From contig NZ_JACHNB010000001.1 in assembly GCF_014205225.1 (NCBI RefSeq), forward strand, positions 5,809,501-5,873,500: DNA of 64,000 bases. The letters run 5' to 3'. A program made the translations under genes and the position numbers. This DNA is from Actinoplanes octamycinicus (lineage in GTDB: Bacteria > Actinomycetota > Actinomycetes > Mycobacteriales > Micromonosporaceae). This document shows positions 36,040 through 46,106 of the stretch, in pieces. How positions within the stretch are numbered: the first letter of the stretch is position 1; each line of letters starts with the position of its first letter. The notes under the pieces are model-generated. The model worked only from the letters and a program-made list of their open reading frames with translations, searched no databases and was not told where the DNA came from.

Positions 36040-36312
36040 ACAAAAGTTCGACGCCGCCTCCGCCCTGCTCAACTACCTCCTCGGCGTCGGCGCCCAGAAC
36101 GCCGCGATGGCCAGCTGGGTCACCCAGGGCACCGACCGCACCGAGGTCCTCGACATGGTCGCCTCCTTGTGGACCAGCCTCGACACCGACGAGTACCCGT
36201 TCCTGCGCTCCATCGCCGCGCAGCTCCGCGCCCACGACGACCGGGCCGAGTTCCTGGCCGGCGTCGACCTCATCCAGGTCGGCATCACCAGCACCGCCCC
36301 CCGGCGTGAGAC
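36040..36312 (+). pseudogene. C-terminal remnant of a TetR-family regulator
   Basis: The frame reads KFDAASALLNYLLGVGAQNA then TEVLDMVASLWTSL and YPFLRSIAAQLRAHDD followed by EFLAGVDLIQVGI. This is the ligand-domain end typical of TetR proteins (last two helices), without any DNA-binding N-terminus. The frame upstream is unrelated. It lies at the left border of the caspase island, consistent with a rearrangement scar. Confidence 0.5.
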
Positions 36313-36449
36313 CGCTTCCGCTAGGCCAACCCATTTCCGGTACTACGCCGGCGCCCCCTGACTGCGGTTTCCGGACGGGACGCTCCGGGCGTACCGAAAG
36401 ACGGGGTGAGCAGTGAGTGCCGAGCGGATCCCGCGCCCGCGTGCCGTTG

Positions 36450-36486
36450 GCGGAAAGCGATCACCTGAGTACTCTGCGAGCATGCC
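36450..36486 (+). promoter_or_regulatory. Duplicated 37-bp promoter, copy 1
   Basis: Matches 39051-39087 at 34 of 37 positions. Contains CCTGAGTACTC and a -10-like TACTCT (36470-36475) with TTGGCG 17 bp upstream (36447-36452). The -10 ends six bases before an ATG at 36482. That ATG starts a 10-codon frame overlapping the caspase-like gene start, not the gene itself. Confidence 0.7.
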
Positions 36487-36514
36487 TGTCGATGTGACAT
36501 GCCGTGTTCCTTGA
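36482..36514 (+). other. Ten-codon remnant of the lost hydrolase start
   Basis: ATG CCT GTC... encodes MPVDVTCRVP and ends at a TGA (36512-36514). It corresponds to the start of the hydrolase gene in unit 2 (MPVVFV, at 39083), followed directly by sequence matching the end of that gene and the caspase start. It reads as the junction left by a deletion of the hydrolase gene from unit 1. It may act as a leader frame coupled to the caspase-like gene (GTG at 36504). Confidence 0.6.
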
Positions 36515-37616
36515 CCGCCGCCCGGACGCCGGCCCGGGCCTGCACGCCCTGATCATCGGGGTCGGGCACCATCCATTCCTTACCGGCGACCACCTGCGGC
36601 ACGCCGGGCCCACCGATGCCGGGACCGCCCCGGCCTCCGCGCTGCGCTTCCTGGACTGCCTGCTGGCCCGCGGGGTGGGCAACTGGGCGCGGCCGGTCGC
36701 GACGGTTGACGTGCTGCTGTCGCCGGTGCGGGAGCTGGTGAGTCCGGACGGACGGAGCGTGGCGGTCGAGGAACCGACCCGGCGTAACGTGCAGGCGGCT
36801 TTCGACCAGTGGCTGGAGCGGTGCGAGTCGCATCCGGACAACATCGCGGTGCTGTACTTCTCCGGGCTCGGTGTACAAACCGGTCAGCAGGTCCTGCTGA
36901 CCTCCGACTTCGCCGCGAGCGAGGACGACCCGTTCCGGGGCGCGTTCGCCTTCGACACCAGCCGGGACGGGTTGCTGACCCGGTTGCCGTCCACGCAGTG
37001 CCTGTTCGTGGACGCCGGGTGGCTGCGGCTGGGTGACGAGGTGATCCGCCGGCGCGGCCGGGGCGCCGAGCCGCTGATCGCTCCCGGACCCTTCGCGGAG
37101 CGGAAGTGCCGGCATGATCTGACTCTGCGGGCGCCGCAGCTCCCGGATACCGGCGCGCCGCTTTCCCCGTTCACCTCCGCCCTGATCAAGGCCTTGGAGG
37201 GGGTGGCAGCCACGGAGGACCCGGAAACCGGGGACTGGGTGCTCTCCACGGCATCCATCAGTCAGGCCATGACCGTCCTGGTCCAGCGGGAGCTGGGGAA
37301 GGCCGGCACCGGGCGGGCGGTACCGGGTGCGGAGATCTTCGAGCCCGCGGTGCTGCGGCGGCTCCTGGTACACCCGCAGGTCGAGGGTGAGCTGCGCTGG
37401 AAGGTAACGACGTCCGGCCGGGTGCGCTGCGTTCCCCGGCTGCGCACGGGTGCCGCGCAGGAGTTCTGGGGCTCGATCGAGGGGCCTCAGTGCTTCTCGG
37501 GGCCGGCCGGCCATTATGTCGCGAAGGTCGACTCCTTCCCGGGCGTCGGCGAACTGGCGGAGCGGCCGCTCCTCGCGCTGCCGCCAGCCGCCGAGATCCT
37601 CGTGGGGAGCGCCTGA
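36504..37616 (+). CDS. Pseudo-caspase (C14-like, catalytic dyad lost)
   Basis: 370 residues, collinear with the active paralogue at 40249. The p20-like core is present (HALIIGVGHHPFLTG, FLDCLL, NIAVLYFSGLGVQ, AFAFDTSRDGLL, QCLFVDAGW). The catalytic His is Leu122 (SGLGV) and the catalytic Cys is Gly172 (VDAGW), at exactly the positions of H122 and C172 in the paralogue. So it cannot be a cysteine protease. It may regulate or bind the active copy, as pseudo-caspases do in other systems (inference). The frame is intact, so it is not obviously decaying. GTG start at 36504. Confidence 0.78.
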   Translation: MFLDRRPDAGPGLHALIIGVGHHPFLTGDHLRHAGPTDAGTAPASALRFLDCLLARGVGNWARPVATVDVLLSPVRELVSPDGRSVAVEEPTRRNVQAAFDQWLERCESHPDNIAVLYFSGLGVQTGQQVLLTSDFAASEDDPFRGAFAFDTSRDGLLTRLPSTQCLFVDAGWLRLGDEVIRRRGRGAEPLIAPGPFAERKCRHDLTLRAPQLPDTGAPLSPFTSALIKALEGVAATEDPETGDWVLSTASISQAMTVLVQRELGKAGTGRAVPGAEIFEPAVLRRLLVHPQVEGELRWKVTTSGRVRCVPRLRTGAAQEFWGSIEGPQCFSGPAGHYVAKVDSFPGVGELAERPLLALPPAAEILVGSA

Positions 37617-39034
37617 TGAGTTCGGTACGGCTGCTGCTCACGGCCGCGGATCCCGGCCTGGCCGGCACGCCGCTGCTGGTCACCACCCATCCACCGGCCG
37701 GGCGTGGTGGGCGGTCCCTGGTCGCCCGGATCCAACATCCGCTGAGCGTTGCGGTGGCGGAACCCTACTGCGGGTTCGCCGTCCATCTGCCGGGCGGCCG
37801 CACGATCACCGCCGCTGTCGCGCCCGGCAAGCGGGACGAGACAGTGGACCTCGTCGTAGACGTGGTCGGCGACGCGCACACGGTGTTCACCACGGCCGGC
37901 ACCCAGCAATGGGGCCGCTTCACCGACTCCGGCTACCCGGGATGCTGGGTCCGGCTGTGGCGGGCGGACGACCGGACCGGCGCGTGGCAGGTCGTATCCT
38001 GGCCGGACGCGCCGATCACGGCCGAGCCGGACCGGATCACCTTCCACCTACGGCTGCCGCCCGGCCGGCACATGGTGCAGGCCGGTGGCGAGCGGCTCAC
38101 CCCTAAGCTGTCCGTGCTCCCGGAAGCGGCCCGGGTGGACATCACGCTGCGCCCGGCCGCCGGTCCGGTGCCCTGGCTCGGCGTCTTCGTCACCACCGAT
38201 GACCTGCCCGCCGAAGCGTTGCGGGGCTACCTGGCGAGCGGGGCAGTGGCAGCCGCCCGGCAGATCGATCAACTGACCAGCGATGCCGCCGGTCCGCTGG
38301 CCCGGATCGCTGCCGGCTACCTCAGCCTCCGCGCCGGCGCCCCGCCGGACGCCGAGGCAGTCGACGGGTCGACAGCCGACGAGACGGTGATCCGCGCCTG
38401 GCGGCACTGGCACACCGGATCGGAGCCGGAGGCGGTGCCGGCGGAGTTCGAGCGAGCGGTCCGGGCCGGGGTGCCGATCTACCCGGAAGGGCTCCGGTTG
38501 CTGGCCGCGGCCCTGCGCCGGCTGTCCGATCCCGGCGCGCTGGACGAGGTGGCTCCGCTGCTGGACGCGGCGGAGCTGAGCGAGCCCACCACGGCGTTCG
38601 CCGGAGCGGCGCCCGACCGGCCGTCGGCGGATGCGACCGACTCGATGTGCACGGCGCTGCCCCATCGCGTCGCGTTGGCCCCGCATGTCGGCGAACCGCG
38701 AGAGGGCGTTCACCTGCCCGCCGCCACTCTGGCCGACATCGCCGAGGCCGAGGAGTTGCTCGGCGACCTCGAAGTGTTGGCGTCGTGGTACCACACCGCG
38801 AAGGGCTGGGAGCAGGTCGGTGTCGCGCTCCGGCAGATGCGGCAGGCGCTGCTGACCGACGACCTCGATCAGTTCCAGGACAGTCTGGTCGCACTCGAAG
38901 TCTTGGGGCCGGTCCGCCACCACCATGGTCCACGCACCGTGAGCCCCATGCCGGCCGAGATCCGGGTCCTGGTCGACGAGCTGCGCGGCATGCTGGCGGC
39001 GATGCGGGTGGACGGATCGCCGCGGCTGGCGTGA
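37616..39034 (+). CDS. Caspase-partner protein (CATRA-like C-terminus), copy 1
   Basis: 472 residues. N-terminal beta-rich domain (VRLLLTAADPGLAGTPLLVTT... WVRLWRADD), helical middle (YPEGLRLLAAALRRL, AELSEPTTAF), and a C-terminal helical domain (EELLGDLEVL, WEQVGVALRQMRQALLTDD, VALEVLGPVR). The last part resembles, from memory, the CATRA-associated domain of caspase/TPR conflict systems. ATG overlaps the pseudo-caspase stop (TGATG). Its paralogue is at 41376. Probably the binding partner of the caspase-like protein. Confidence 0.65.
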   Translation: MSSVRLLLTAADPGLAGTPLLVTTHPPAGRGGRSLVARIQHPLSVAVAEPYCGFAVHLPGGRTITAAVAPGKRDETVDLVVDVVGDAHTVFTTAGTQQWGRFTDSGYPGCWVRLWRADDRTGAWQVVSWPDAPITAEPDRITFHLRLPPGRHMVQAGGERLTPKLSVLPEAARVDITLRPAAGPVPWLGVFVTTDDLPAEALRGYLASGAVAAARQIDQLTSDAAGPLARIAAGYLSLRAGAPPDAEAVDGSTADETVIRAWRHWHTGSEPEAVPAEFERAVRAGVPIYPEGLRLLAAALRRLSDPGALDEVAPLLDAAELSEPTTAFAGAAPDRPSADATDSMCTALPHRVALAPHVGEPREGVHLPAATLADIAEAEELLGDLEVLASWYHTAKGWEQVGVALRQMRQALLTDDLDQFQDSLVALEVLGPVRHHHGPRTVSPMPAEIRVLVDELRGMLAAMRVDGSPRLA

Positions 39035-39050
39035 CCCGGGCGGAGCATTT

Positions 39051-39087
39051 GCGGACAGCGATCACCTGAGTACTCTTCGGGCATGCC
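39051..39087 (+). promoter_or_regulatory. Duplicated 37-bp promoter, copy 2
   Basis: Same element as 36450-36486. TACTCT (39071-39076) lies six bases before the hydrolase ATG at 39083, with TTTGCG 17 bp upstream, so this transcript should be leaderless. It includes GATCACCTGAGTACTCT. Confidence 0.7.
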
Positions 39088-40243
39088 GGTTGTCTTCGTG
39101 CACGGGGTGGCCACTCGGAAGAAGCCGGGCACGACGCGGCGGTTCGTGAAACGCTGGGCGCTGCTCGAGGAGATCCTGTTTCCCGCGCTGGGCGGCGGCG
39201 ACGCGGCGATCGGGCGGTATGAGGCGTTCTGGGGTGACGCCGGGGCCGAGCTCTGGTGGGGTGGGGCCTCGCTGCCACGGGCCGGTGGTGAGCGGTTCGG
39301 CGGGTTCGAGCCGGACGGCGACGACCTGATCCTGGCCGAGACGCTGTTCGGCGGGGCGGTCACCCGGCCGGTGGATGTCGCCCGGCCGCTGCTCGACGCG
39401 GCCCGGGGCGGGCTGGGGCAGGCCGTCGATCTGCTCTGGGCCTACGCCGAGCCGGAGCCGCCGGACGAGCTGATCCCGTTCGTGGCGAGCGCTTCGGCGT
39501 ACGCCGAACGCCATCCGTCGCCGGGGTGGCTGGCCGACTGCCGGGACGACGAGGACCTGCTGGGCCGGCTGCTCGACGAGGTCGCGCCGGCCGAGCCGGG
39601 CGCGGGGGAGACGTTCGGGTCGCGGCGTCTGGTGCGGCGGCTGCGCGAGGTCGGCGCGCGGGTGGTCGCGGCGCCGGGGCGGCTGGTCTCGAAGCCGGCG
39701 ATGGCGGCCCGGCCGCTGGTGCACCGGCCGAGCGCGATTTTCCTCGGTGACGTCTTCGAGTACCTGGCGCAGCGCGGCCGGGCCGGCGCGGAGGGAAAGA
39801 TCGCGCGGATCGTCGGGGACACGATCGCGGAGGCGATGACGGCGCGGCGGCCCGGCGACGAGCGGCTGGTGGTCATCGCGCACAGCATGGGCGGGAACAT
39901 CGTCTACGACCTGCTCTCCGACCTGCGCCCGGAGCTGGAGTGCGACCTGCTGGTGACGGTCGGGTCGCAGGTGGCGCTCTTCGCCGAGCTGGGCATGTTC
40001 GGCGCGGTCGAGCGGCCCGCGGACGCCGAGCGCGACCGGGTGCCGGCGCTGCCGAACGTCCGGCGCTGGATCAACGTCTACGACCAGCAGGACGGCCTGT
40101 CGTTCGCGGGCGCCCGGGTCTTCGACGGCGTCGAGGACTACGGGTACTCGACCGGGGCCGGGCTGCTCGGCGCGCATTCGACCTACTTCGAACGGCCGAG
40201 TTTCTACCAGCGGCTGGCCGCCCGGATCCAGGAAGGCGGCTGA
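39083..40243 (+). CDS. Alpha/beta hydrolase of the caspase island
   Basis: 386 residues. N-terminal strand and oxyanion loop PVVFVHGVATRK, nucleophile Ser in VVIAHSMGGN (about residue 268), and a candidate His in LLGAHSTYFERPSF near the C-terminus. A long insertion (about residues 60-230) lies between. Looks like a lipase or esterase-type enzyme; in conflict systems such enzymes could attack membranes, but this is inference. Followed 5 bp later by the active caspase gene. Leaderless start at 39083. The same gene was apparently deleted from unit 1. Confidence 0.7.
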   Translation: MPVVFVHGVATRKKPGTTRRFVKRWALLEEILFPALGGGDAAIGRYEAFWGDAGAELWWGGASLPRAGGERFGGFEPDGDDLILAETLFGGAVTRPVDVARPLLDAARGGLGQAVDLLWAYAEPEPPDELIPFVASASAYAERHPSPGWLADCRDDEDLLGRLLDEVAPAEPGAGETFGSRRLVRRLREVGARVVAAPGRLVSKPAMAARPLVHRPSAIFLGDVFEYLAQRGRAGAEGKIARIVGDTIAEAMTARRPGDERLVVIAHSMGGNIVYDLLSDLRPELECDLLVTVGSQVALFAELGMFGAVERPADAERDRVPALPNVRRWINVYDQQDGLSFAGARVFDGVEDYGYSTGAGLLGAHSTYFERPSFYQRLAARIQEGG

Positions 40244-40248
40244 CGCCG

Positions 40249-41379
40249 GTGTTCCTGGACCGCCGCCGGGGCGCCGAGCCCGGGATCCACGCCCTGATCA
40301 TCGGGATCGGTCACTATCCGTTCCTGACCGGAAACCATCTACGGTACGACGGGAGCGCCGATCTGCGGTCCGCACCGGTGTCCGCGCTGCGGTTCCTCGA
40401 CTGCCTGCTGGACGACGCGGCAGGACCGTGGTCGCGGCCGGTGTCGACGGTCGACGTGCTGCTCTCCCCGGTGCGTGAGCTGGTCGACCCGGACGGGGTG
40501 GCCGTGCCGGTCGCCGACCCGACCAGGCGGAACATCCAGGCGGCCTTCGACGGCTGGCTGGATCGCTGCCGATCCGATCCGGACAACGTCGCGGTCCTCT
40601 ACTTCTGCGGCCACGGTGTCCAGACCGACGAGCACATCCTGCTGGCCAGCGACTTCGCCGAGAGCGACAACAACCCGTTCCTGGGTTCGTTCGCCTTCGA
40701 CACCAGCCGGGACGGCCTGCTCACCCAGTTGCCCCGGACGCAGTGCCTCTTCGTGGACGCCTGCCGGGTCCATCTCACCGAGGAGGTACGGCGGAAACGG
40801 CTGCTGGGCGCCGGCCCGCTGATCGCCCCGGAGGACTACGCGGAGCGGCTCTGCCGGCACGACCTGACGCTGCGGGCGCCGTTCCTCGACGAGTTCGGCG
40901 CGCCGGACGGCGAGGCGCCGGTCTCCTACTTCACGGCTGCCCTGGTGAAGGCTCTGGAAGGCCAGGCCGGGGAGGAGGACCCGGACACCGGGGCCTGGCT
41001 CGTGTCGAACGAGTCGATCAGCCGGGCGATGACGACGTTGCTGCAGCGGGAACTGGGCGAGGCGACCGGGCAGGCGGTGGAGGGCGCGCGGATCTACCAG
41101 CCGGCGGTGCTGCGGCGGCTGGCGGCGGCGCCGTCGACCGAGGTCCGGGTGCGCTGGGATCCGGAGATCACCTCCGGTGTCGTCCGGTGCACGCCGCGAC
41201 TGCCGGCCCGGCCGGAGCACCGGTCGGCGGCCTCGGCGAGGCAGCCCTGGCGATTCCCGGCCGAGGCCGGGCACTACGTCGCCACCGCCGAGTGTGACCA
41301 GGGCTCGTATGTGGCGGAGCAGCGACCGTTCCTGGCCCTGCCGCCGACCGCCGACGTCCGGGTGCGAAGGCAGCGGTGA
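40249..41379 (+). CDS. Caspase-like cysteine protease (peptidase C14 type)
   Basis: 376 residues. Caspase p20-like core: HALIIGIGHYPFLTG, FLDCLL, NIQAAFDGWLDRC, then VAVLYFCGHGVQ with H122 and QCLFVDACR with C172, the canonical His-Cys dyad. A second half (SPIPEDYAERLCRHDLT region, FTAALVKALEG, SISRAMTTLLQRELG) would be p10-like. GTG start at 40249, 5 bp after the hydrolase stop. Its stop overlaps the partner gene start. Expected to cleave after Arg/Lys or Asp in a triggered response, but substrate is unknown. Confidence 0.82.
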   Translation: MFLDRRRGAEPGIHALIIGIGHYPFLTGNHLRYDGSADLRSAPVSALRFLDCLLDDAAGPWSRPVSTVDVLLSPVRELVDPDGVAVPVADPTRRNIQAAFDGWLDRCRSDPDNVAVLYFCGHGVQTDEHILLASDFAESDNNPFLGSFAFDTSRDGLLTQLPRTQCLFVDACRVHLTEEVRRKRLLGAGPLIAPEDYAERLCRHDLTLRAPFLDEFGAPDGEAPVSYFTAALVKALEGQAGEEDPDTGAWLVSNESISRAMTTLLQRELGEATGQAVEGARIYQPAVLRRLAAAPSTEVRVRWDPEITSGVVRCTPRLPARPEHRSAASARQPWRFPAEAGHYVATAECDQGSYVAEQRPFLALPPTADVRVRRQR

Positions 41380-42812
41380 GCACCGTGCGGCTGCTCCTGA
41401 CCAGCGACGACGCCGGGCTGGACGGAACGCCACTGGTGGTCACCGCGCATCCGATGGAGGGTCGCGGCGGCCAGCCGTTCGTCGCCCGGATCGGCGAGCC
41501 GCGGACCGTCACGGCGACCGGCCCGCAGTGCGGCTTCGCCGTGGCGCTGCCGGGCGGCGGCACGGTCACCGCCGCCGTCGTTCTCGACGATGGCGACCGG
41601 GCGGACCTGGAGGTCGGCCTGCCCGACGCGCACGCCCTGTTCACCACGGCCGACAGCCAGGTGTGGGGCGCCTTCACCGATCCCGGCCATCGCGACTGCT
41701 GGATCCGCCTCTGGCGCCGGACCGGCGATTCCCGCGGCTGGGCGGTGGTCCCGTGGCCGGCGGAGCCGGCCGTGGCGTTGCCGGACCGGGTCACCTTCCG
41801 GATGGAGCCGCCGTCCGGGGCTCTGGTGCAGACCGGCGGCCGGGGGCTCACCCCGAAGTTCTCCGTGCTGCCCGAGGCGTCGCACGTCGAGGTGACGGTC
41901 CGGCCGGCCGCCGGCCCGGTGCCCCGGCTGGCCACCTACGTCACCACCGGCGACCTGATCGCCGAGGTGCTGCGCGGCTACCTGTGGCGAGGGAACGTGT
42001 CCGCCTGCCGGCGGATCGCCGCACTCGACTACGGACACCGGGACGTCGGCACGCACCTCGCGCGCGGCTATCTCCTGATGCGAGGGGCAGCGGAGTTGCT
42101 CCCGGACCTCAACGTCTGGCATGCGGACGACGCGTTGTGGTGGCCCGATGCCGACGGGGTCCGGGAACCGGCGGATGTCGCCGCGATCCACGGCACCCTG
42201 CTGTGGGAGGCCGGGCAACGGGAGGAAGCCACCGCGGCTTTCCAGCGGGCCGGCATCCCGGCCTACCCCGAAGGACTGCGCCTGCTCGCCACCGGCCTGC
42301 GCAGGCTCCGTGACCCGGCCTCGCTGACTCTGCTGGAGCGGCTCCTCCCGACGCTGGACGCGGCCGACCTGAGCGAACCCACCACCGCCTGGTTCGGGGC
42401 GTCGCCGGACCAGCCGTCGCGCGACGCCCGCGACGACGACTGCGCGCACCTGCCCCACCGGTTCAGCATCTCCGCGCTGTTCGGCACGCCGGCTGCCGGC
42501 TTCCGGCCACCGGCCGCTGACCGGGAGCTCCTCGCCGAGGTTCAGGATCTCCTCACCGACGTCCCGGGCTGGACCTTCACGGCGGACCGGTGGGCCCGGG
42601 TGGGCGTGCTCCTCGACGACCTGCGCAGCGCCTTGCTGGCCGCGGACCTGGAGGCGTTCCTGGAGCGGGCGGACGATCTGGAGATGCAGGCGCCGTTCCG
42701 CGACGTGCAGCCCGGCGCCAGGCTGACGGCGATGCCGCCCCACGTCGGCTCGCTGCTCGCCGAGGTGCGGGAGCTGCTGGCCAGGATGCTGGCCGGCGAG
42801 ATCCAGCGATGA
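41376..42812 (+). CDS. Caspase-partner protein (CATRA-like C-terminus), copy 2
   Basis: 478 residues, paralogous along its length to the gene at 37616. N-terminal beta-rich domain (VRLLLTSDDAGLDGTPLVVTA, WIRLWRRTGDSRGW), a central helical region and a C-terminal helical domain (WTFTADRWARVGVLLDDLR, ALLAADLEAFLERADDLEM). GTG overlaps the caspase stop (GTGA), so production is coupled. It is soluble with no signal peptide. Probable sensor, adaptor or substrate of the caspase. Confidence 0.65.
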   Translation: MSTVRLLLTSDDAGLDGTPLVVTAHPMEGRGGQPFVARIGEPRTVTATGPQCGFAVALPGGGTVTAAVVLDDGDRADLEVGLPDAHALFTTADSQVWGAFTDPGHRDCWIRLWRRTGDSRGWAVVPWPAEPAVALPDRVTFRMEPPSGALVQTGGRGLTPKFSVLPEASHVEVTVRPAAGPVPRLATYVTTGDLIAEVLRGYLWRGNVSACRRIAALDYGHRDVGTHLARGYLLMRGAAELLPDLNVWHADDALWWPDADGVREPADVAAIHGTLLWEAGQREEATAAFQRAGIPAYPEGLRLLATGLRRLRDPASLTLLERLLPTLDAADLSEPTTAWFGASPDQPSRDARDDDCAHLPHRFSISALFGTPAAGFRPPAADRELLAEVQDLLTDVPGWTFTADRWARVGVLLDDLRSALLAADLEAFLERADDLEMQAPFRDVQPGARLTAMPPHVGSLLAEVRELLARMLAGEIQR

Positions 42813-42852
42813 CGCCGGAGGCGATGCGCGAGCGGCGTCGCCGTCGGTGCGG

Positions 42853-43644
42853 TCAACCGGTTGCTGCGGTGGTCGCCTGGATCAGGTAGAGGACGGCCAG
42901 GGCGGTGGCCAGCGTGCCGAGCAACAGGCGCAGCGTCCGCTCCGGGAGCCGGGGCTGCAGGCGGGCACCGAGGTAGCCGCCGATCAGGCCGCCGGCGCCG
43001 CAGAGCAGGCCGAGCAGCCAGTGCGGGGCGATGTCGCCCGAGGTGGTCAGGGCCAGCACGCCGTAGGTGGCGGCGCCGACGATCGAGGTGACGAAGGTCG
43101 AGGCCAGGGCGGCCGGGGCGATCTGCGTCATCGGGGTGCCGCGGCCGGCCAGGATCGGGCCGAGGATCGAGCCGCCGCCGATCCCGTAGACGCCGCCGAC
43201 CGTGCCGGTGAGCAGGCTGAGCCCGAGGATGGCGCGGCGCGGCAGCGGCGGCCGGTCGGGAGTGCCCGGGCGCAGCGCGCGGGCGCACAGCCAGAGGCCG
43301 AGCGGCAGCAGCACCGCGGCGGCCACCAGGCGGAACACCCGCGGGCCGGGGATCGCGAAGACCCGGATGACCGCGCCCAGCACGACACCGGGCACGGTGC
43401 CGGCGATCAGCAGCCGGGCGAGCGGGCCGGTCAGCTGGCCGTTGCGCCGGTAGCGGGCCAGTGCGCCCGGGCCGGCGACGACGTTGAACAGCAGGTTGGT
43501 CGGGGTGACCGCCGGGCTGGGCACGTGCAGCACGCTGAGCTGGACCGGGAGCAGGAACACCGCGCCGGACACGCCGACCGGCGCGGTGACCGCGGAGATC
43601 AGCAGGCCGGCCAGGAAGCCGGTCAGGCCGGTCGCCACGTCCAT
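42853..43644 (-). CDS. TauE/SafE-family sulfite/organosulfonate exporter-like permease
   Basis: 263 residues, eight membrane helices. Family pattern: FLAGLLISAVTAPVGVSGAV, NLLFNVVAGPGALARYRR, LLTGTVGGVYGIGGGSILGP and STFVTSIVGAATYG. Converges with the last caspase-island gene across 40 bp. The natural substrate cannot be inferred. Confidence 0.83.
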   Translation of the reverse strand: MDVATGLTGFLAGLLISAVTAPVGVSGAVFLLPVQLSVLHVPSPAVTPTNLLFNVVAGPGALARYRRNGQLTGPLARLLIAGTVPGVVLGAVIRVFAIPGPRVFRLVAAAVLLPLGLWLCARALRPGTPDRPPLPRRAILGLSLLTGTVGGVYGIGGGSILGPILAGRGTPMTQIAPAALASTFVTSIVGAATYGVLALTTSGDIAPHWLLGLLCGAGGLIGGYLGARLQPRLPERTLRLLLGTLATALAVLYLIQATTAATG

Positions 43645-44565: not shown

Positions 44566-45354
44566 ATGGGCGGCGTGCCTGATCTCGCTGACCGGCTTCC
44601 GGAGCCGCCCGCGCGCCGGCCCGACCTCGACGACGACTTCGCCGGGCCGCGGCTGCGCGACGACCTCTGGATCGACCACTATCTGCCGCAGTGGACCACC
44701 CCGGACCGGTCCGCGGCCCGCTACGACCTCGGCGACCGGGGACTGCGCCTGCGGATCGACGAGGACCAGCGGGACTGGCGGCCGGAGGACGCGCCGCTGC
44801 GGGTGTCGAACATCCAGACCGGGACCTTCGCCGGGCCGCTCGGATCCGGGCAGGGCACCCACCGGCACCGGCCGGACGGGCTGGTGGTGCGGACCGCGAC
44901 GCCGGCCCGGCTGCTCTGGGCGCCGGCCGCCGGGCGGGTCGACGTCACGGTCAGCGCCAGCGCCGACAAGGGCTGCATGTTCGCGGTCTGGCTGGTCGGC
45001 ACCGAACACCTCGACGCGCGGGACAGCGGCGAGGTGTGCGTCTTCGAGATCGAGGCGGCCGACCTGACCACCGCCCGCTGCGGGATCAAGGCGCACCACG
45101 ACGACCGGCTCCGGCAGGAGATGACCGAGGTGACCATCCCGGTCGACGCGGCCCGGCCGCACACCTGGACGGCGATCTGGGGTCCGGACGGCACCGTGAT
45201 CGGGTGCGAGGGCGTCGAGCTCTTCCGCTCGGCGCAGGCCCCGCTCTACCCGCAGTTCCTGCTGATCGACCTGTGGGAGCTGGGCGGGCGTACCGGGAAA
45301 TATCCCAAGACGGCCTGGATCCACCGCGTCCGCGGCTGGGACAACAGCCGTTAG
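44566..45354 (+). CDS. GH16-like (concanavalin-fold) protein
   Basis: 262 residues. DLDDDFAGPRLRDDLWIDHY at the N-terminus and LFRSAQAPLYPQFLLIDLWE near the C-terminus match the pattern of actinobacterial proteins annotated as GH16-like. The canonical GH16 catalytic motif ExDxxE is not seen (here FEIEAADLT), and there is no signal peptide, so hydrolysis is doubtful. Start at ATG 44566 or GTG 44575; neither has a strong ribosome site. Converges with the Lon-like gene, overlapping 4 bp. Confidence 0.6.
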   Translation: MGGVPDLADRLPEPPARRPDLDDDFAGPRLRDDLWIDHYLPQWTTPDRSAARYDLGDRGLRLRIDEDQRDWRPEDAPLRVSNIQTGTFAGPLGSGQGTHRHRPDGLVVRTATPARLLWAPAAGRVDVTVSASADKGCMFAVWLVGTEHLDARDSGEVCVFEIEAADLTTARCGIKAHHDDRLRQEMTEVTIPVDAARPHTWTAIWGPDGTVIGCEGVELFRSAQAPLYPQFLLIDLWELGGRTGKYPKTAWIHRVRGWDNSR

Positions 45355-46106
45355 CAGGCGGCCGGGGTGCCACCGGCGGTGATCGTCTTCAGCGCGGTCA
45401 GCGCCTCGTCGACGGTACCGACCTTGGCCATCGGCAGCCCGGGCACCGCGTTGCGCTTGGCCTCGGCGCAGTTGCCGGCCGGCACCAGGAAATACGTCGC
45501 GCCGGCCGCTTTCGCCCCGTGCAGTTTCTGCGGGATGCCGCCGATCGCGCCGACCTTCCCGGCCTCGTCGACAGTGCCGGTGCCGGCCAGGATCCGGCCG
45601 CCGGTCAGATCGGCCGGGGTCAGCTTGTCGACGATGCCGAGGCTGATCATCAGCCCGGCGCTCGGGCCGCCGATCCCCGCCACGTCCACGGTGACCTGCA
45701 CCCCGGCCGGGTTGCCGAGCTCGTCCAGGGCGACCGTGACGGCGGTCGACTCGGACTCCTGGAACGCCGTCGCGTTCTCCTGGTTGACCTGCTCGTCGGT
45801 GCGGCCGGCGGTGAACACCGCGTCGCGCGGCACCAGCGCCCGCTGCGGATCGGACCAGGCGTCCCAGGCCTCGCCCAGGGTGACGCCGGTCTCCACCGAC
45901 ACCGTGGTGAGCCGCAGCTGGCCGGCCGAGGCGGACACCTCGGCGCCGGTCACGGTGATCACCTGGTGGCCGTCCTTGCTGCCCAGCGTGTCCACCGTCG
46001 GACCCGGATCGAGCAGCACGTAGGGCAGCGGCAGGACGGCCGCGCCGACCCCGAGCAGAGCGGTGATCAGGGCGCCAACGGCGATCAGGAGGCCACGACG
46101 TTTCAT
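45351..46106 (-). CDS. Membrane-anchored Lon-like S16 protease, PDZ missing
   Basis: 251 residues. N-terminal membrane anchor (LLIAVGALITALLGVGAAV), then a Lon C-terminal protease domain with Ser in GGPSAGLMIS and Lys in GKVGAIGGIPQKLHGAKAAGA (Ser-Lys dyad). Related YlbL proteins have a PDZ domain between anchor and protease and are about 340 residues; that domain is absent here. The active site faces the outside. TACGCT lies 7 bases upstream of the ATG. Divergent from the membrane protein at 46181. Confidence 0.78.
   Translation of the reverse strand: MKRRGLLIAVGALITALLGVGAAVLPLPYVLLDPGPTVDTLGSKDGHQVITVTGAEVSASAGQLRLTTVSVETGVTLGEAWDAWSDPQRALVPRDAVFTAGRTDEQVNQENATAFQESESTAVTVALDELGNPAGVQVTVDVAGIGGPSAGLMISLGIVDKLTPADLTGGRILAGTGTVDEAGKVGAIGGIPQKLHGAKAAGATYFLVPAGNCAEAKRNAVPGLPMAKVGTVDEALTALKTITAGGTPAAC

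Follow-up and report, generated by a model that had tools for sequence, protein, structure and literature searches.

Can a bacterial caspase that has lost its active site be kept as a regulator of a live one? Inactive bacterial caspases are already known, and regulation of a live caspase by a dead one in bacteria is regarded with doubt in PMC6426788, in the portion available. The locus described here lies in a 64,000-nucleotide stretch of the genome of the soil bacterium Actinoplanes octamycinicus (hereafter the window; positions 5809501-5873500 of a single 10.28-Mb contig; GC content 74.0%). It is an island of five genes composed of two tandem units: (i) a dead caspase-like protein and its partner (copy 1), and (ii) an alpha/beta hydrolase, a live caspase and its partner (copy 2). 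The features of the island (window positions; nt, nucleotides; aa, amino acids) are as follows.

36291..42875, plus strand: whole island; absent from the relative G051, in which both flanks align (blastn)
36447..36489, plus strand: remnant, in copy 1, of the hydrolase upstream region and first codons; 43-nt direct repeat
36482..36514, plus strand: 10-codon vestige of the hydrolase frame, overlapping the dead caspase start (direct sequence reading)
36504..37616, plus strand: dead caspase-like protein, 370 aa, L122/G172; caspase domain followed by a C-terminal beta-sandwich
37616..39034, plus strand: partner of the dead caspase, 472 aa; CATASP E value 1.3e-13; omega 0.11, neutrality rejected
38765..38998, plus strand: CATASP domain of the first partner; PF20271, 53.9 bits; genome positions 5848265-5848498
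39048..39090, plus strand: copy-2 region upstream of the hydrolase with the hydrolase start; counterpart of 36447-36489
39083..40243, plus strand: alpha/beta hydrolase, 386 aa; nucleophile motif AHSMGG (S268), H365 invariant
40249..41379, plus strand: live caspase, 376 aa, H122/C172; PF00656 40.5 bits, dyad present
41376..42812, plus strand: partner of the live caspase, 478 aa; CATASP E value 6.7e-12; model pLDDT 89.1, pTM 0.77
42537..42764, plus strand: CATASP domain of the second partner; PF20271, 48.8 bits; genome positions 5852037-5852264

Architecture and duplication of the island

A check of the open reading frames (ORFs) returned the five open plus-strand frames at the coordinates of the first-pass annotation, which had described same-strand genes with overlapping or nearly touching starts within each unit. 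The last base of the dead caspase TGA (37614-37616) is shared with the ATG of the first partner (37616), the GTG of the second partner (41376) overlaps the live caspase stop (41377-41379), and the live caspase begins 5 nt past the end of the hydrolase. Spurious GC-rich frames were ruled out by homology, codon-model constraint and conserved gene order.

The two caspases share 61-62% identity, and their alignment runs ungapped through the dyad (L122/G172 versus H122/C172), which bears out the proposal of one dead and one active copy. The live caspase has both marks of a C14 peptidase, a Pfam score over the PF00656 cut-off (40.5 against 21.4 bits) and the His/Cys dyad. The dead caspase (21.5 bits) lacks the dyad, and its anticipated caspase fold was recovered by structure prediction. 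The C-terminal beta-sandwiches of the two proteins have strongly diverged (37% identity). With PADLOC, only the generic "caspase" model matched, on both proteins. Among 102 aligned caspase rows, 101 carry H/C and one, the dead copy of the window, carries L/G. This copy departs from the family at 10 of 38 conserved columns, compared to 3 for the live caspase and a family median of 2; two other rows, with live dyads, likewise show 10 departures. Further conserved positions lost in the dead copy include C120S, R173W, Y23H and L39A.

Units 1 and 2 repeat at an offset of 3745-3757 nt across caspase and partner. The 43-nt repeats upstream (36447-36489 and 39048-39090) are 88% identical (alignment score 61, compared to a maximum of 27 in 300 shuffles) and take in the hydrolase ATG and first codons, after which unit 1 runs nearly straight into the caspase start. 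Since the repeat holds the hydrolase start, unit 1 most likely had a hydrolase once, and this gene was most likely deleted except for its first codons. The "duplicated caspase/hydrolase island" of the first-pass annotation therefore stands for the caspase-partner unit, whereas the hydrolase is single and copy 1 retains only its remnant. The core motif of the repeat, CACCTGAGTACTCTNCG, occurs twice in the genome when up to one mismatch is allowed (reversed control, 0), in counts that use patterns built from the two repeat copies themselves. By eye, the upstream repeat can be read as promoter-like (TTGGCG-N17-TACTCT, then ATG). A sigma-70 promoter before both units was rejected, as a strict promoter scan found none.

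The hydrolase scores below the Pfam cut-off (best 19.1 against 27 bits), and its assignment comes from sequence: it has the nucleophile elbow and catalytic His, with S268 and H365 invariant in 32 aligned family members. Both partners carry, at the C-terminus and over the Pfam cut-off, the CATASP domain (CATRA-associated small protein, PF20271), in agreement with the CATRA-type helical domain suspected there earlier. The second partner is predicted to consist of a beta-rich part (residues 1-191), TPR-like helices (193-330) and C-terminal helices with CATASP. A database search with this protein missed the first partner (37616-39034), though both caspases came up in the caspase search.

Constraint on the dead caspase and its possible role

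Phylogenetic analysis placed the dead and live caspases as sisters (support 100/94), with P0002 as neighbour. The latter is the nearest foreign relative (sharing 51% identity with the dead caspase and 60% with the live one); P0002 and the partner-family protein P0016 lie on contigs of 25,390 bases each. The dead caspase branch is 2.8-fold longer than the live one (0.47 versus 0.17), and relative-rate counts against P0002 were 58 and 25, respectively.

Codon models with three taxa (Catellatospora as outgroup) gave an omega of 0.23 for the dead caspase and rejected omega = 1 (p 0.0017), but do not tell the dead from the live caspase (p 0.31). Equal-time estimates with F3x4 frequencies did separate them (0.19 dead versus 0.08 live; difference p 9.6e-5; neutrality p 8.6e-19). 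The partners of the dead and live units showed no difference (0.11 versus 0.14), and neutrality was rejected. F61 frequencies lowered the values to 0.10 (dead) and 0.04 (live) for the caspases, and to 0.07 and 0.08 for the partners. These estimates suggest that the dead caspase is relaxed yet maintained and that constraint is equally strong on the two partners. The codon models thus favour retention over plain decay, as had been supposed from the two intact frames; the persistence of the dead copy is known from this one genome.

As a whole, the island is best explained as a variable, tandemly duplicated cell-suicide, or biological-conflict, cassette built from a hydrolase, a caspase and a beta/TPR-like/CATASP partner, with a working copy 2 and a regulatory copy 1, a reading to which we give an even chance. 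Copy 2 would be the working unit, in which the partner may act as a sensor or as a scaffold holding the caspase; once activated, possibly by phage, the live caspase and the lipase-like hydrolase would kill or arrest the cell. An anti-phage function is suggested by the literature on the family. An internal deletion most likely removed the hydrolase from copy 1, and the copy-1 caspase has lost the His/Cys dyad, but the dead caspase and partner still appear to be maintained as proteins. The dead caspase could then compete or pair with its live sister, its partner occupying the same docking sites, and copy 1 would thereby set the activation threshold, as c-FLIP does with caspase-8. The most specific form of this proposal, a bacterial counterpart of c-FLIP, is put forward tentatively: a lineage-specific dead caspase, derived from tandem duplication of a suicide cassette, deprived of the hydrolase and pairing via a conserved caspase strand and the TPR-like/CATASP partner, would set the death threshold.

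Several points weigh against a copy 1 that is kept for regulation. Constraint on the dead caspase is relaxed, as judged by its 10 departures at conserved columns and its 2.8-fold longer branch. The selection estimates average the whole branch, including the time before dyad loss, the synonymous sites are close to saturation, and Nei-Gojobori pairwise ratios, at 0.49 (caspases) and 0.66 (partners), are far higher. At such composition, freedom from stops is by itself weak proof of selection: under simulated neutral drift, the chance of a stop-free frame was 0.14-0.38 at 90% GC and 0.006-0.16 at 74% GC. The recurrence of active/inactive pairing, which the first-pass annotation had asked about, was not found in any relative examined. 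Among 120 relatives, 354 family genomes and 394 class genomes, only the genome of the window gave a double caspase match, although second copies could escape detection, since 16, 5 and 4 candidates, respectively, were scored per genome. Among 8000 protein candidates scored, the dead copy had no orthologue but itself. Among the genomes searched, the pairing is thus private to this one, and its generality is unproven. Finally, PMC6426788, in the portion available, argues that bacterial pseudo-orthocaspases most likely do not regulate true orthocaspases of the same organism.

Inhibitor, decoy and scaffold are indistinguishable by sequence, which bears on the next account: that the dead caspase and its partner bait invader proteins or sense peptides and never pair with the live caspase. 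Kaur et al. 2020 (PMC7159879, in the sections available) propose inactive effector and peptidase domains as decoys, dominant-negative regulators or peptide binders, and the dead copy retains its own partner and core fold. However, the accessible literature names no phage protein targeting the caspase family. The phage collection contained no relative of the caspase, an absence that is uninformative on phage inhibitors. We regard this account as rather unlikely.

Still less probable is that the dead caspase was long a working paralogue and is now being lost, the constraint predating dyad loss. Its faster branch, its Pfam score scarcely over the cut-off, the hydrolase already gone from copy 1, the lack of an orthologue among the candidates scored elsewhere and the limited weight of an open frame would all fit such recent inactivation, whereas the four additional losses listed above suggest that time has passed since then, with frame and upstream region still in place and the partner still constrained. 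Equally improbable is a new, separate function for copy 1, as a peptide-binding scaffold or developmental factor unlinked to copy 2, which the loss of both hydrolase and dyad and the diverged beta-sandwich would permit, but which sits poorly with adjacent, same-strand copies that share an upstream motif found just twice in the genome and the same CATASP-bearing partner class.

Genomic setting and cassettes in other genomes

The flanks were compared with six relatives, taken around the flanking globin gene. One of the six (G051) has both flanks in common with the window by gene order and is without the island: blastn blocks stop at 36290 and restart at 42876. Because G051 aligns on both sides, the island is a discrete insertion or replacement. 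Other reading frames occupy its position in G051, which also carries two upstream features missing from the window, an MFS transporter gene and the front half of the TetR gene next to it. What is left of the TetR regulator in the window, a C-terminal remnant at 36045-36290, shares 91% DNA identity with part of the intact gene (226 aa; L152:6168-6848 in G051). A minus-strand gene at 45354-46106 scores 27.2 bits against the C-terminal domain of Lon protease (cut-off 21.1). A defence-island setting, which the first-pass annotation had proposed to check, found no support, as a Pfam scan of 19 distinct flanking ORFs gave no known defence family.

A scan of genome contigs with the caspase alignment gave 157 pattern matches and 87 related loci, with 80 retained; adding 7 loci taken from whole genomes, and dropping copies, left 87 outside the window for analysis. 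All but one (L092) contain a caspase of the window family. Of these 86 loci, the partner follows the caspase in 81 and the hydrolase lies directly upstream in 42; a full-length partner module is present in 46, together with the hydrolase in 33. The predicted hydrolase-caspase-partner order thus recurs. The absence from all relatives that had been named as grounds for doubt holds for the dead/live pair, but not for the cassette. All three components were found in loci of Actinomycetota, Pseudomonadota, Cyanobacteriota and Thermodesulfobacteriota. In the Bacteroidota loci, caspase and partner are present but no hydrolase was detected. Among Planctomycetota, L042 combines all three components, its partner match being partial, and L027 has no separate partner. 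Counting the genome of the window, matches were obtained in 7 of the 120 relatives and 12 of the 354 family genomes; among the 394 class genomes it was the sole match.

What comes after the partner module differs among loci: in Mycolicibacterium it is HSP70, in Streptomyces geranii CATASP plus a glycosyltransferase, in Nostoc pentapeptide repeats, in Actinomadura CATASP below the cut-off, and in Catellatospora CATASP and then a CHAT-domain gene. Such a constant core with a variable end matches the picture of conflict systems given by Kaur et al. (PMC7159879, as far as available). In Mycolicibacterium peregrinum (L012:10990-14211), the partner module and a full HSP70 (E value 3e-246) form one open frame, adjoining an H/C caspase and hydrolase. 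Two caspases, all H/C, occur in two other loci, of Variovorax (L030) and Paraburkholderia (L038). The latter (L038:5103-13048) has a single hydrolase followed by tandem caspases of 1126 and 1031 aa, another case of one hydrolase with two caspases. A phage-borne origin of the module was rejected, as the phage collection gave no match; 13 plasmid records contain distant caspases.

Comparison with known systems

CATRA ternary systems were reportedly described by Burroughs and Aravind in 2020. The island resembles these systems, which are named in PMC8195603 (portion available), in the C-terminal CATASP of both partners. It differs from them in that no CATRA-N/CATRA-C match was found by Pfam in the five island proteins. 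The partner as a CATRA protein was rejected, having neither a Pfam match nor hhalign similarity to the CATRA protein of the genome. The sole CATRA-N match of the genome is at 9.47 Mb. The locus concerned (near 9.467 Mb; positions 6142-15562 of L092, 9457500-9477400) encodes a vWA protein, two proteins of no clear family, an 827-aa CHAT protein, CATASP, and CATRA-N/C with a TIR domain; where it has a CHAT protein, the island has a C14 caspase with a hydrolase. The genome has three CATASP matches, in this locus and in each partner.

Outside caspase partners, 7 of 9 CATASP matches over the cut-off in the genomes scanned for it lie within 1 kb of CATRA-N, both exceptions being in G158. The partners may possibly dock to the CATRA protein of the genome in trans, but this seems not to be required, because three genomes that gave no CATRA-N match still encode a CATASP-bearing partner: G141 (Catellatospora), G787 (Streptomyces geranii) and, with a score under the cut-off, G786 (Actinomadura). 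This weakens that candidate. In Catellatospora, a 1175-aa CHAT protein (L105:11737-15261) is encoded directly downstream of hydrolase, caspase and CATASP partner. The CHAT link is not general, since phmmer searches of L013 (Actinomadura) and L035 (S. geranii) gave no CHAT; none was found in the window either. The genome of the window has 17 CHAT-domain matches, many within long open frames.

In VMAP (MoxR-vWA) and GAP1 systems, an alpha/beta-hydrolase adjoins the caspase, and inactive caspases are frequent beside active ones, with hydrolases, in VMAP systems (Kaur et al. 2020, PMC7159879, sections available). The same adjacency is seen here (39083-40243 and 40249-41379). Unlike in those systems, the dead and live caspases of the island are tandem sisters with a partner each, and Pfam found no MoxR, vWA or VMAP in the 19 flanking ORFs or five island proteins. 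The match of the live caspase to EACC1-caspase systems (NF047832) is weak (24.8 bits; 13.8 was also scored), missing the cut-off of 140. Like bacterial pseudo-orthocaspases (PMC6426788, portion available), the dead copy has a predicted caspase fold and no His/Cys dyad; it differs in carrying L/G instead of the commoner Y/S and in adjoining a live sister. It is actinobacterial, and that source counts 3 pseudo-variants among 636 actinobacterial sequences. No account of a tandem live/dead caspase cassette was found in the accessible literature.

In animals, the long form of c-FLIP, a dead caspase homologue, tunes caspase-8. The working principle proposed here is alike, by analogy, the caspase fold being the sole relation shown; no death-effector domain was found in the island. 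With its active site and lipase-like gene lost, but apparently under selection, copy 1 is a candidate built-in brake. The tandem sister pair, together with single-copy cassettes in relatives (Catellatospora and others), makes regulation by a dead caspase directly testable. If the proposal is true, a bacterial c-FLIP would represent an independent origin of the pseudo-caspase brake of animals.
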